This document shows positions 845 to 6,800 of a stretch of DNA of 64,000 bases, in pieces. The notes under the pieces were generated by a model that worked only from the letters and a program-made list of their open reading frames with translations, made no database searches and had not been told where the DNA came from. The DNA is from Axinella damicornis. Taxonomy: Eukaryota > Porifera > Demospongiae > Axinellida > Axinellidae. The DNA lies in NCBI GenBank assembly GCA_963931865.1, contig OZ007515.1:8662685-8726684 (forward strand), in the 5' to 3' direction. The position numbers were made by a program, and so were the translations under genes. The first letter of the stretch is position 1. Each line of letters opens with the position of its first letter.

Positions 845-3800
845 ATTGCCAAGTGATTGAATACGGAAAGTATTTCGAGTGATGCATTGTCTTCCGTAGT
901 AGTCATCCCACTGCCTCGGACCTGCACAGCGTCTCCTAGCCATTCCAAGTTCCTCAGTCGTGTTATAGACACACACATTGGTGTCATTCATGCCAACTTC
1001 TGTCTCAGACCAGTTGTACACTCCGTGGGGTGTGTCGATGTCAGCCTCAGCATCACAGAATCCGAATTCATTCGATTCTGGACCAACCATGGAATCAAAA
1101 GGATAATAGCTTTAAACTTAACTACAATTGAAATCATGGTTGCTAATGTTGCATTCCATGTTCATGAGCTTCACAAATTAATGACCTAATTTTTTTCCCT
1201 ACTGCAAGAGCAATAGACCTTATTCCGCAAAAATGAAATTCCAGGTTTCCGTTGCTATGACAACAAAAAACCCTTGTACCCATTGGTCACCATGCCGATA
1301 GGCTGCATCCCAGATTCGAAGTTAATAGGATGTATAGTGTCCAAGTTATGGCCTCCCAAAATTCAAGATTTTCCCATTGAAGCCCATACATAATCTGAAA
1401 TTTTTCTACTGGAGGCGCCTCCAGTAGAAAAATTCTTACATTTGTATGGGCTTCAATGGGGAAATTCTGAAGTTCAAGAGGCTGTAACTCGGACACTATA
1501 CATCCTATTTACTTCAAATCTAGGATGTAGCCTATCTGCATGGTGACCAATGGGTACAAGGGGTTGTTGTTGTCATAGCAACGGAAACCTGGAATTTCAT
1601 TTTTGCGGAATAAGGTCTATTGAATTGAGCAATGTAGCTAATTGTGTTCCAGAATGCAGGTGCTAGTTATCACACCATTGTCTTTGTCACAGTTACCAAG
1701 GCTCATGGACTGTGGAGGTAACTCAACTCGACAGTGATGTCCCATGGACTACCACAGTGAAGTGAACAATGCAACATTATCTTTGGCATACATCTTTTGG
1801 CTTACTCTTACTCCTCATACATTTTGTTCAAGGCAGCTGCCATTACCATGTACATAGCTCGTAGCCTCATTCTCACGCCCCTGAGAACGAGGCTACTTAG
1901 CTTGGGCACCACCACAACCTCTGCTTCCATCTTAACAGGGTGCTGCTTTAACATACAGCATCATCTTTGACTAAAATAAAATACTCGTGTCCAATTTGCC
2001 CAATTGGAGATCAACCAAGCAGGTAGTCAAAACATTAGATCTGTACAATGGTACACAAAATGATTCTACTGACTCCTAATATTTTTGCATAAAACACAAG
2101 TTGGAAATGAGAAGAGAGGAATGGGCCATAACTCATGCAATTATTATATATAGGTAACAAGCACATTGAATACTTCCCCTCCACTTACAAACTGGAAATG
2201 GGTTATACCAACGAACCTGCGGAATTATCAATCAGCACATTCTCCAGAGCACTATTCACATCACTCGATATACCAGGATATATCATTTCACCTGAGATGT
2301 GGCACTCACTTCTTTCTACACTGCTTTCCTCGTGCAGTCTCCTGCAGTGTAATATTGAACAGTCATAACCCCTGCATACATCATCACACATGCACACTCT
2401 GGAAAAATGAGCGTTAACATGGAGGGGGTGGGGCAGCAGGTAAGGCGTGCCCATTGGCTGAGTACGCATGTGCACGAGTAGTTTTCCCATGGTGATGTCA
2501 TTCTATAACAGCTGCAAGTAACGGGCTTGCAAAAACAGCCCCACTCACCCACCTCATCCAATGAGAGGTGAAAATCTAGGCATGCTCCGTCGAAGTACTT
2601 TGACGTTGACCAGGCCCAATTGGGGTGGATTTCCATGTACAAGACCTTATTAGGGTCTGTACATTACATAAGCCCTTCCAAACCACATACATAAAGCATT
2701 CAGACAGTGCTTGAAAAATATAAAAGCATATAGATTTAGAATTGCTTGGGCAACCCCCCTTCAGTGCCTACCCCCAAACACAACATTAACGTGCCGATTC
2801 GGAATCCTGAGCATGTTAACCATTTGGTGATGCATATCAGCTGTTGACTGTTATACTGATGCATGCTTACCTGGATACTGTGGTGCACTCAGTTGAAGCT
2901 CTACCACTCATACGTTGGTTCAATCTGTTCAGGATCTAGACAGCAAGAGCACAGTCAACTTGGTAAGTTGAAACCAGTTCCTCAGGTACACCTGTTGCTA
3001 ATTAGCCTCATTCCCAGGCCTCATGGGACCTGGGAATGAGGCTAACCTGCTGCTGTAAGCTCAACCTATTAATACCTGCACTCCCACCTTACCTGTGTGC
3101 TGAAGTATGCATCCACAAACTCTGCAGATACAAAGTTCAAACTCCACTGGATGTCCTCTTTTGGAATTGTGCTGAACCGCACATAAACTGTACCACTGGT
3201 GCTTGCTGCTGGGGCACAAATCAGCATCATGTAATTATCATGACATGTATTAACTTTTATACTAGCAACAAATAGAATATTCTCATATCAAAGCTACGTC
3301 AAAACTCAGTTGCTAAATAGCGGGCACTTTTGAGAGAGGAGAGCATGCAAGCCCTATCTCTAAAGATTTTGAGCTAGCATATAGAGGCAGGAGATTGGAG
3401 GCAGATGCCTCTCACTATTGTGTGAAGAGCAAAGAATGTGGACAAACAGATAATATCTACACAGCCTCGCATGCATGCATGCAGGACGGTATGGGAACTT
3501 GTACTGGTCCCACAATCACGCAGGGGGACACAGATCACATTCTCCTCCAAAAGCAGAAGGAGAGGTAACTTACTAGGTATGGTTTTTTGAGAGATCTACA
3601 CAATGTTATCATGACACTGATGGGGATCACAATACAATTGGGTGTCACAATACATATGCATGGGTATCAATTATGCTATTGCCCAGCAACACTCAGCTTA
3701 GCTGCTCCACATTAAGTCCATGGCATCTAACCTTTGGGGTCAATTGACACAGTGCTCTCGTTTCTCTCAGGACCATTTAATGCAACACATGTATACATCC

Positions 3801-6800
3801 CTGCAGCAACTGGCTGGATTCCAACTGCAACTCGAGTTGTGCCATTGGTAGATTCTCTCGTTTTGAGAATGACTGAGTTTTGAGAAACTCTATAGGCATA
3901 CAGCTGTCCTGCCTGTTCATCGGCTCTTCCACTTGACAATTCAGGCACTACACAGAAGATATACATTAATATTCAGAGCATTTGCAATGTAATGTGTAAT
4001 CAGGTACTACCGGTACATATATATGCATACTACTTACACACTACGTATAGCTCTTTGCCTATGTACGCGATATGATATATGACTGTAATACTGGCATAAT
4101 ACTATTTGGCAACACATTTTTCATATGAAGTGCAAAGCAATACCAAGACTTAATCTTTACTTCTTCAAAGATGCAGAGTTGCAACAACTACCTCATCCTC
4201 ACTCCAAGCTCACTAGTTAACTGATTACGTATACTTCAAAATATCAACATACTAGAATAGCAATATTGACAAGCTGAATGTAACATCATTGTAGCTTCAG
4301 TGTCGGCTATATATTGAACGTATTCACTTGCTCAGTTTAAATTTATCATGAACCATAACACACTCATCACGGTGTACTCAGAAAGAATTATGCAATGACT
4401 GTGTATAAAACAGTCATTACAACAAAGGTTCTTAACAGGTGAAGGAGACAAATGTAGCCCAGCATACAGTCAGAATCCAACTTCCCTTATATTCACAGTG
4501 GCTACTCAGAGCTTGAATTGTTTACCAAACACAGCTTTCATAGTGTACTGTTAACCAGCTAAGAATCAAAATTGCTTACCTATCATGTCTCCCTGGTACC
4601 AGGAAACTTGAAAAAAACTGGAGGTGTTACATACGAGACCAAATTCTTGACCAATTCCAACACTATAGCTGTTTGCTTGCAGTTCATATGCATTCGCATG
4701 TGTTACAGATGTGTCAACCTCCACTTGAACTTCTGGTGTCCGAGCTGCAGAGTATAGCATTCAGGCATACGATGATCGAAGTGTATACATGACAATTCTT
4801 GCGCAGAGTGCCCACTGCATAGTTGACATCACTGCAGTTAGATGATAGCACAATGAAACGTACCAATGCATTCAGTGAAGTCATCGGAGGGCCTGTGTGT
4901 ATCTTCGTTGCAGCTTACTGGGTTTGTGTTCTGTGTAGCAGAGACACATTATCAAGTTCGCAGACAATGGGCAATACAAATGTAGTGCACATCAGACTCA
5001 CTGCAAGAACACCAAAGTTAGTGAGGTGGTTGCAAGAGCAGGTGACGGTCAGTCCTCTTGTCCCAACCACTGAGCAGCCAGCACTAGACCAGCTCCCTTT
5101 GCCTCCTAAATTTAAGAATCCATAAACAGACTTAGCTACAGCTAAAACCCAGTCACAAATACATTTTCAACAGATTTTTGCTGTCGTATGGACACTTACA
5201 AACAGTGAAAAATGTAGTAGACATTTTCTAAAATTAGTTTGAATCAAAAAGTAGAAATGGCTTTTCTCTACATCTAAAACTAATCAAAAGCAGGAGTAAA
5301 GCACTATCCATATCACTAATCTGGTAGGGATTAAAATACAAGTTTAAAAAAATTCTCCTAAGAAATATCAAGCACTGTGATAATTTACATACCTAGACAT
5401 GATTTGGTTTACCTTCAGCTGTGAAATCCCAGTACATACAAGTTGGAAGTTCAAAGTTCTGGAGTTCAGTAGAGAAATAGAAACACTATGTCAAATGTAT
5501 ACACACAGCAAACCAACAGCAACGGACCTCATTTTGCATTGCCAGTTCAATTATGACATTGTCTGAAAGACCACTGAGTTCATAACCAAACACATTCGCT
5601 CCAATCACAGGTGAACCCAACTCAAACCTGTCACTGCGGGATGGACTACTTGCAAGGGGAAAGAGAGCTGCTGTTGTGTATGCAGTAAACGATAACCTGA
5701 CATTGCTGGCACTGATGCCATTGAACAGTGAAGGAGGAAGGGCGATAGACATGTTGCCTTCCGTGGTTTGATCACCATCACTGCCAATGGCAGGCATGAA
5801 CATTTTACCAGAGGTTTGAGCATCAGCTAAATCAACCTACATGGATCAGAGATAGTAGTGGCGATGATTATGTGCACCTTACATCATGAGCAGCAGACGG
5901 TATTTTACTTGCCACTAACATGTGTGGGTGGTTCAATACCTTAAGGTTACGGGATACTCGTGTGTGCGCCGTGTGAAATGTATTGGGAAATGCATACTTA
6001 AGCTCGCTAACCAAAAATCTCTGGTACAAAGAGCGTGAGCAACTTGATTCTGGCGGTGGAGGTGTGCTGTCACAAGGTGCAGGGCATGACGGAAGCTTTT
6101 TTGATAGCATAATCCCTGGCAAATTTATCTGCTGTCTCGCTCGAGAAAAGTGCTTTTGGTGAACTGAACTGCTCGTTTTGCAAGGCTATACAACGTATCG
6201 GTAAAAGCTTCCATCATGCCCTGCACCTTGTGACAGCGCACCTATGTAGCTGCACATTCACAGGTGAGGACAGCCATTTATATTCTGAGGCTATAAAATT
6301 TATTTAAGGTTCAGTTTTTACTTGAACCACCCACATAAAATTATGTCTGAAGTCAAGAGGCACTTACTTTTTCTCCTGTAAATGTAAGGTTTGGAGTTGA
6401 AACAGAGAGACTTGTGAAGTCGTCCTTCTGGACAAGTTTAGTCAATATATCCTCAAAGGACGCCACAATCCTGCAAGAAAAAGATTGCTAGATACATCCC
6501 GCAAGTAATTGCTATGTGGCTAGAAAGTTGCGGGAGTCGGGTTTTCTGTATATGATTCCACATATTCAACTCTGCACAATAACATGAATGTCTATGGTAA
6601 GACCAAATTTGCAGCTCATCTGTGACTGCTATAGCAATGCTAGCATTGTTGAACCGGTGTGTAACCCCCCAGAAGGATGGCCAAGAGTGTCCATTGCAAA
6701 TGCTAGCATTGTTGAACCGGTGTGTGACCCCCCAGAAGGATGGCCAAGAGTGTCCAGTGCGAATGCTGGCTTGATCTAAAGTTCACATTTTGTTTCATTG

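Follow-up and report, generated by a model that had tools for sequence, protein, structure and literature searches.

A predicted adhesion G protein-coupled receptor with two serial HormR-GAIN-GPS modules in the sponge Axinella damicornis

The 64,000-nucleotide (nt) stretch of Axinella damicornis DNA analyzed here (the window; positions 8662685-8726684 of contig OZ007515.1, hereafter C11) carries, on its minus strand, much of the ectodomain of a predicted adhesion G protein-coupled receptor (GPCR) with two GPS sites. In the textbook view, an adhesion GPCR consists of two pieces, with one GAIN domain, one cut, and one tethered agonist beside the first helix. The overall explanation that we consider probable is that one gene encodes one adhesion GPCR chain containing two HormR-GAIN-GPS modules, and that this chain would be cut twice. 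The predicted domain order is NIDO - EGF/SRCR - HormR1 - GAIN1 - GPS1 - linker - Ig-like - 95-residue domain - HormR2 - GAIN2 - GPS2 - seven-transmembrane region (7TM). The gene order, the open frame, the existence of further copies, their conservation, and the cut motifs are established at the level of sequence.

Gene Model and Domain Assignments

The gene copy in the window was named A, and three further copies on C11 were named B, C, and D. From HormR1 to the stop codon, copy A was read as 24 exons encoding 1427 amino acids (aa) in a single frame, with GT-AG introns and exons placed by eye. These comprise HormR1, GAIN1 (four exons), GPS1 (two), the linker, the Ig-like domain (two), and the 95-residue domain (three), followed by HormR2, GAIN2 (four), GPS2 (two), one exon each for transmembrane helix (TM) 1, TM2-3, and TM4, and a final exon that encodes TM5-7 and the tail. 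The features are as follows (window positions unless marked C11).

33064-33880, minus strand: NIDO (nidogen-like) domain, exons 33880-33599 and 33379-33064; Pfam NIDO E 8.1e-54 with the two exons joined
8639-32555, minus strand: EGF/SRCR exon array, mostly phase 1-1; gene-finder chain
8160-8383, minus strand: HormR1 exon; Pfam HRM E 0.001, 19.9 bits against a cut-off of 26.2
5528-7686, minus strand: GAIN1, exons 7686-7531, 7325-7249, 6470-6368, and 5836-5528; family profile against solved ADGRG2, E 1e-22
5002-5458, minus strand: GPS1, exons 5458-5413 and 5105-5002; Pfam GPS
4864-4930, minus strand: linker exon (NTNPVSC...), recognizable in copies B and C and in the Ephydatia protein P0121 (NTNPVTC)
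3732-4744, minus strand: Ig-like domain, exons 4744-4580 and 3947-3732; only Pfam Ig_3 E 0.059
2217-3205, minus strand: 95-residue domain before HormR2, exons 3205-3093, 2935-2871, and 2341-2217; read from the letters
845-1077, minus strand: HormR2 exon; ratio of nonsynonymous to synonymous divergence (dN/dS) between copies A and B 0.09
C11:8662581 down to about 8655973, minus strand, left of base 1: GAIN2, GPS2, 7TM, and stop; read from the letters

The original prediction for this locus, a GPS in mid-ectodomain, was borne out by both GPS1 exons. The second exon alone (C11:8667689-8667790) matched Pfam GPS with E 5.9e-10, and the site contains four Cys, two Trp, and the cut motif HL↓T, in which the arrow marks the cut. 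The linker, the two Ig exons, the 95-residue domain, and HormR2 follow in the intron phases that had been claimed, with no stop. Extension of the search to the left of base 1 recovered the further GAIN, the further GPS, and the seven helices that had been anticipated there, followed by a stop. GPS2 (C11:8659414-8659527; Pfam E 2.7e-10) lies 3.2 kb left of base 1, and the two halves of a 7tm_2 match follow it (C11:8657962-8658258 and 8656592-8656879). In copy A, GAIN2 and GPS2 stand directly before the TM1 exon, the placement that defines an adhesion GPCR, and the usual single GAIN/GPS per chain, which is no formal requirement, is departed from, with two GPS stretches.

A Pfam scan of the C-terminal part of copy A (the first 1253 of the 1427 aa) returned GPS with E 2.9e-28 in two stretches and one 7tm_2 with E 8.5e-30, spanning profile positions 4-249 of 250; 7tm_2 was matched in all three copies scanned. 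HRM (0.011), GAIN (0.012), and Ig_3 (0.059) stayed under the cut-off in the same scan, and the second Ig exon taken alone gave no Ig match in Pfam. The locus was also absent from the matches listed by genome-wide HRM and GAIN profile searches, which, like the other genome-wide searches, covered the 226-Mb assembly of 120 contigs. The names HormR, Ig, and GAIN thus rest on position, cysteines, and relatives, and for GAIN also on profile matches to solved structures; the GAIN2 profile, built with Ephydatia sequences as was that of GAIN1, matched solved ADGRG6 with E 2.8e-21. The label "SEA-like" for the 95-residue domain fell away: none of eight members matched Pfam SEA, and hhalign gave a probability of 0.1% against two SEA domains. 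Resembling stretches precede HormR in other sponge receptors.

Upstream of HormR1, the chain built by a home-made gene finder passes SRCR and EGF exons before reaching NIDO and, farther right, enters implausible exons. In this model, NIDO is close to the N-terminus of the ectodomain. The array between them was sampled by Pfam, with two exons scoring as EGF and one as SRCR, and open reading frames (ORFs) resembling it were found among those listed for copies B and C.

A Duplicated Seven-Exon Block

The suggestion that HormR-GAIN-GPS is serially repeated was confirmed. HormR1-to-GPS1 and HormR2-to-GPS2 consist of seven exons each, with phases 0,0,2,0,0,1,0 in both, and two exon lengths (77 and 103 nt) are identical between the blocks of copy A. 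Alignment of GAIN1 with GAIN2 by hhalign gave a probability of 100% and E 2.9e-49, with 36% identity in the profile alignment. The repeat unit is this seven-exon block, of which modules 1 and 2 are duplicates.

Four Tandem Copies on C11

The GPS-GPS-7TM order on one strand was found in all four C11 copies, which lie 43 to 98 kb apart. The GPS matches are at 8624424 and 8619211 in copy B, 8559395 and 8552287 in copy C, and 8461037 and 8453511 in copy D, and 7tm_2 matches follow the second GPS in each copy. The second Ig exon of copy A has exactly four genome matches, each between the two GPS of A, B, C, or D. Copy D shows this order of matches, and the cut residues were read in copies A-C. The exons of B and C were located with the phases of A, after which seven exon positions were set by eye, one of which came out as before. 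Domain order and open frame are kept in all three models (A, 1427 aa; B, 1496 aa; C, 1443 aa). Copy B uses a GC donor after exon GAIN1c. In B and C, each of the two "d" exons is interrupted by an additional phase-1 intron, and in C the first and second exons of the 95-residue domain are joined without an intron.

In a decoy control with three shuffles per exon peptide, 23/23 exons scored above all decoys in B and 21/23 in C; the two failing exons of C belong to the 95-residue domain. The phase pair expected from copy A ranked first in 21/23 exons of B and 17/23 of C; the exceptions were exons split by the extra intron, exons of the 95-residue domain, and, by a narrow margin, the second Ig exon of copy C. 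The residues HLT were read at GPS1 and at GPS2 of both A and B, and HLS and HLT, respectively, in C, such that all six sites read carry HL↓T or HL↓S. Over GAIN1 and GPS1, copies A and C share just 34% identity.

Between copies A and B, dN/dS was 0.43 (0.30-0.60) for GAIN1 plus GPS1, 0.30 (0.22-0.43) for GAIN2 plus GPS2, and 0.39 (0.24-0.65) for the TM1-TM4 exons of the 7TM region; both GAINs are under purifying selection in this comparison. The A-C comparison was set aside because dS was saturated in 5 of 11 groups.

The tandem cluster, with its internal repeats, invites the explanation that adjacent copies were fused into one by the assembly or by the modelling. The same order recurs in four copies separated by tens of kilobases, GAIN1 and GAIN2 of one gene are as divergent as noted above, and a second species, Ephydatia muelleri, has the same architecture; such an artefact is most improbable.

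Relatives in Other Species

Over GPS2-TM3, the closest relatives found were two Ephydatia muelleri proteins (56% and 54% identity) and one from Halichondria panicea (50%). The region searches returned 3 proteins (3346 candidates) and 59 proteins (3383 candidates). They replaced a homologue search with the three-copy alignment over 8000 candidates, in which the named proteins among the 120 listed were of vertebrate ADGRL3 type and none was from a sponge. Two or more GPS motifs were found in 4 of 182 collected proteins, a non-random sample searched with a motif pattern that overlooks variant sites (HM↓T in P0130, for example). In each of the four, Pfam identified two GPS stretches and one 7tm_2. 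Two of them, Em0151g10a (P0121) and Em0023g296a (P0122) of E. muelleri, account for two of the three matches of the GPS2-TM3 search, and are independently annotated single proteins with the same order. The others are P0153 from the clam Mactra antiquata and P0154 from the fish Colossoma macropomum. Protein databases thus hold two-GPS gene models from Ephydatia, Mactra, and Colossoma that have gone unremarked.

In a 28-row tree of GAIN domains, GAIN2 of copies A-C grouped with that of Ephydatia (87/80), and GAIN1 of copy C grouped weakly with its Ephydatia counterpart (83/63). The two GAINs of Mactra were sisters, as were those of Colossoma (100/100 each); since they are each other's nearest kin, separate origins are indicated. 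We interpret the tree as a single ancient duplication in sponges plus an independent duplication in each of the other two lineages; the ancient date of the sponge event is probable but not firm. On this evidence the block duplication probably predates the split from Ephydatia.

A related receptor, P0130 (2254 aa, from a 7,055-base JGI contig), has SRCR, HRM, LDLa, and one GPS before 7tm_2; by eye, its Ig stretches, its stretches like the 95-residue domain, and its HormR stretches are repeated.

Other Serial GPS in the Axinella Genome

The genome-wide Pfam GPS search gave 85 matches, 20 of which are serial, with no 7TM between them among the listed matches: the four C11 pairs, a pair on contig C6, and two five-GPS arrays on contig C5. 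The C6 pair (minus strand, 4641992-4642099 and 4637784-4637885) is 4.2 kb apart, and a TM2-3 match at 4637133-4637396 follows the second GPS. The C5 arrays lie at 13643536-13658322 (minus strand) and, as a twin, at 13542247-13556977. One of the two arrays was read; its repeating exons are HormR, GAIN-like, GPS, Ig, EGF, and Ig, with helix-like stretches after the fifth GPS, and additional hydrophobic frames lie inside the array. The exon chain is rough, in that it skips GAIN exons, has the wrong frame at the fifth GPS, and leaves the helices outside. The array is a possible candidate for a five-GAIN receptor.

One Chain or Two Genes

GPS1 and the GPS2-7TM part very probably lie in a single chain, judging from the exon models and their conservation. 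Among the matches listed from the 150 of 255 genome-wide 7tm_2 candidates that were scored, none lay between GPS1 and GPS2. Between the cut sites, the exon models of A and B contain no 19-residue window above 1.6 on the Kyte-Doolittle (KD) scale; copy C has one, at KD 1.71, inside GAIN2.

Several observations weigh against one continuous, twice-cut chain, and the first of these concern the models themselves. Every exon of copy A was placed by eye; in B and C this applies to seven exon positions, including one that has a GC donor. An unguided gene finder reproduced 13 of the 23 internal exons of copy A base for base, with a broken frame; its chain, which also contained false exons built from repeats, was dropped as a model and retained as a check. 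Outside the exon models, the raw frames between the two GPS contain stretches with hydrophobicity above 2.0 (three in A, two in B, one in C), and one of those in copy A is the unspliced 71-nt intron following GPS1. If this intron (window 4931-5001) stays unspliced in copy A, the frame runs into the hydrophobic stretch and then a stop.

Such a hydrophobic tail would suit an arrangement of two genes, one for a HormR-GAIN-GPS1 protein and another for a separate receptor starting after GPS1. The corresponding intron of copy B is equally long and differs in reading frame; read-through was accordingly rejected as a real isoform. Of the seven introns from GPS1 to HormR2, all but the Ig intron (shortest 473 nt) measure 119 nt or less in one or more of copies A-C, which leaves little room between two genes. 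Frame and order are, moreover, conserved in A-C, and the Ephydatia homologues are annotated as single proteins. The two-gene arrangement, which the original prediction had named as the outcome that would refute it, is thus disfavoured and very unlikely.

Are Both GPS Sites Cut?

Within a single chain, the further points against the proposal concern GPS1. The A-B dN/dS of GPS1 alone was 0.46 (0.19-1.05), and GAIN1 of A and B was unplaced in the tree, with no supported union with GAIN1 of C and Ephydatia. GPS1 reads HL↓G in P0121, KL↓G in P0122, and HL↓G in the Mactra protein, that is, without the cut residue, and GPS1 of the Ephydatia models should probably not cut. In the C5 array, GPS1-4 read HL↓G and GPS5 reads HL↓E. 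Cutting is therefore dispensable for the architecture to persist.

The loss at GPS1 of Ephydatia shows that cutting there is optional, which makes the leading alternative a single chain with two GAIN modules in which only GPS2 is cut in life, and GAIN1 acts as a spacer, whether for structure or for binding. All five sites of the C5 array are without T or S, so that GAINs in series can act as spacers without being cut. In all three C11 copies read, GPS1 nevertheless has HL↓T or HL↓S, despite the low A-C identity over GAIN1 and GPS1, and the Colossoma protein has HL↓T at both GPS. We regard the spacer as unlikely, though a serious competitor, and consider it rather likely, on the motifs retained, that both GPS sites of the Axinella receptor are cut.

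Proposed Mechanism

If both sites are cut, each GAIN would fold and cut itself after HL, and the mature receptor would consist of three pieces held non-covalently. Double cutting and the pieces staying together are inferred from established knowledge of GAIN domains. GAIN2 would act as the switch, as in other adhesion GPCRs: when pulled apart, it would bare the agonist TNFAVLV next to TM1. This motif directly follows the GPS2 cut in copy A, and we take it to resemble known tethered agonists. The cut in GAIN1 would free the end TNFGVLA. As this end stands before the Ig-like domain and distant from the helices, parting there would shed the NIDO/EGF/SRCR arm, while the agonist at TM1 stays covered.

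Since a single pull would load both joints in series, the outcome would depend on which of them is weaker: shedding if GAIN1 parts first, as a fuse, or signalling if GAIN2 does. That the GAIN1 joint is a mechanical fuse is a tentative idea. More doubtful still is the wider proposal of a twice-cut, three-piece receptor with a sacrificial outer fuse and an inner switch, in which serial GAINs (two, perhaps up to five) were repeatedly invented to tune the response to pull. If true, two cut-competent GAINs in series would uncouple shedding from signalling and yield three pieces. Because only one of the joints would hold an agonist next to the helices, the receptor would offer a natural test of the disputed idea that GAIN parting is a mechanical trigger, and the Ephydatia outer joints without the cut residue would be built-in natural controls. 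The architecture also calls into question the customary assumption, in splitting or checking gene models, that the ectodomain ends at the GPS.

Comparison with Described Receptors

In the full-text literature searched, outside subscription papers, supplements, and figures, no adhesion GPCR was described as carrying two GAINs or two GPS (cf. PMC12716839, PMC11697300, PMC13197933, PMC6208332). The original prediction that no described receptor has this order stands to this extent, and is qualified by the two-GPS gene models in the databases. In PMC5548486, "two GPS" refers to two mutants.

Two SRCR-repeat adhesion GPCRs of Amphimedon, Aq712029 and Aq715659, share with the Axinella receptor SRCR repeats and an adhesion-type 7TM in a demosponge, but no second GPS or GAIN is mentioned in the passages on them (PMC4302439). 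The Ephydatia proteins P0121 and P0122 combine EGF/SRCR (with NIDO in P0122), two GPS stretches, and one 7tm_2; they differ in the probably uncut GPS1, and GAIN1 looks incomplete in both models. In Antedon mediterranea, P0134 and P0139 (Ig-SEA-GAIN-GPS-7TM) have an Ig, a small domain, a GPS, and 7tm_2 in the order of the second half of the Axinella receptor, whereas they have one GPS, and their SEA is unmatched by profile to the Axinella 95-residue domain. The Mactra and Colossoma proteins resemble the Axinella receptor in having two GPS, one 7tm_2, and no window above KD 1.6 between the GPS; they differ in an apparently separate origin, and are predicted models at the protein level only.

Polycystin-1 and PKD1-like proteins have REJ and PLAT domains and 11 helices. 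The seven-helix part of the Axinella receptor is 7tm_2, and a polycystin-type receptor was rejected: Pfam gave no REJ or PLAT match over the scanned 1253 of the 1427 C-terminal aa, coverage of the N-terminal array being by sampling. The polycystin-1 family does carry GAIN/GPS (PMC11697300).

Other Features of the Window

The intron before HormR2 contains a 206-nt inverted repeat (1211-1622), with arms 88% complementary and no spacer, and a 39-nt minisatellite of about 24 copies (10615-11552) lies in an intron flanked by an EGF exon and by one for SRCR in the gene model. A 423-aa ORF on the minus strand (58989-60260) has a DDE_Tnp_4 transposase domain (E 6.4e-37), which we take to be of Harbinger type. 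Repeat-like ORFs at 60557-63850 (minus strand) are near-copies of each other; the one at 61201-61947 gave no Pfam match, and the group is, to our eye, reminiscent of a retroelement. At 46.7-48.6 kb (minus strand), ORF pieces with PGPGAY-like motifs are reminiscent of a sperm-tail PG-rich-repeat gene.

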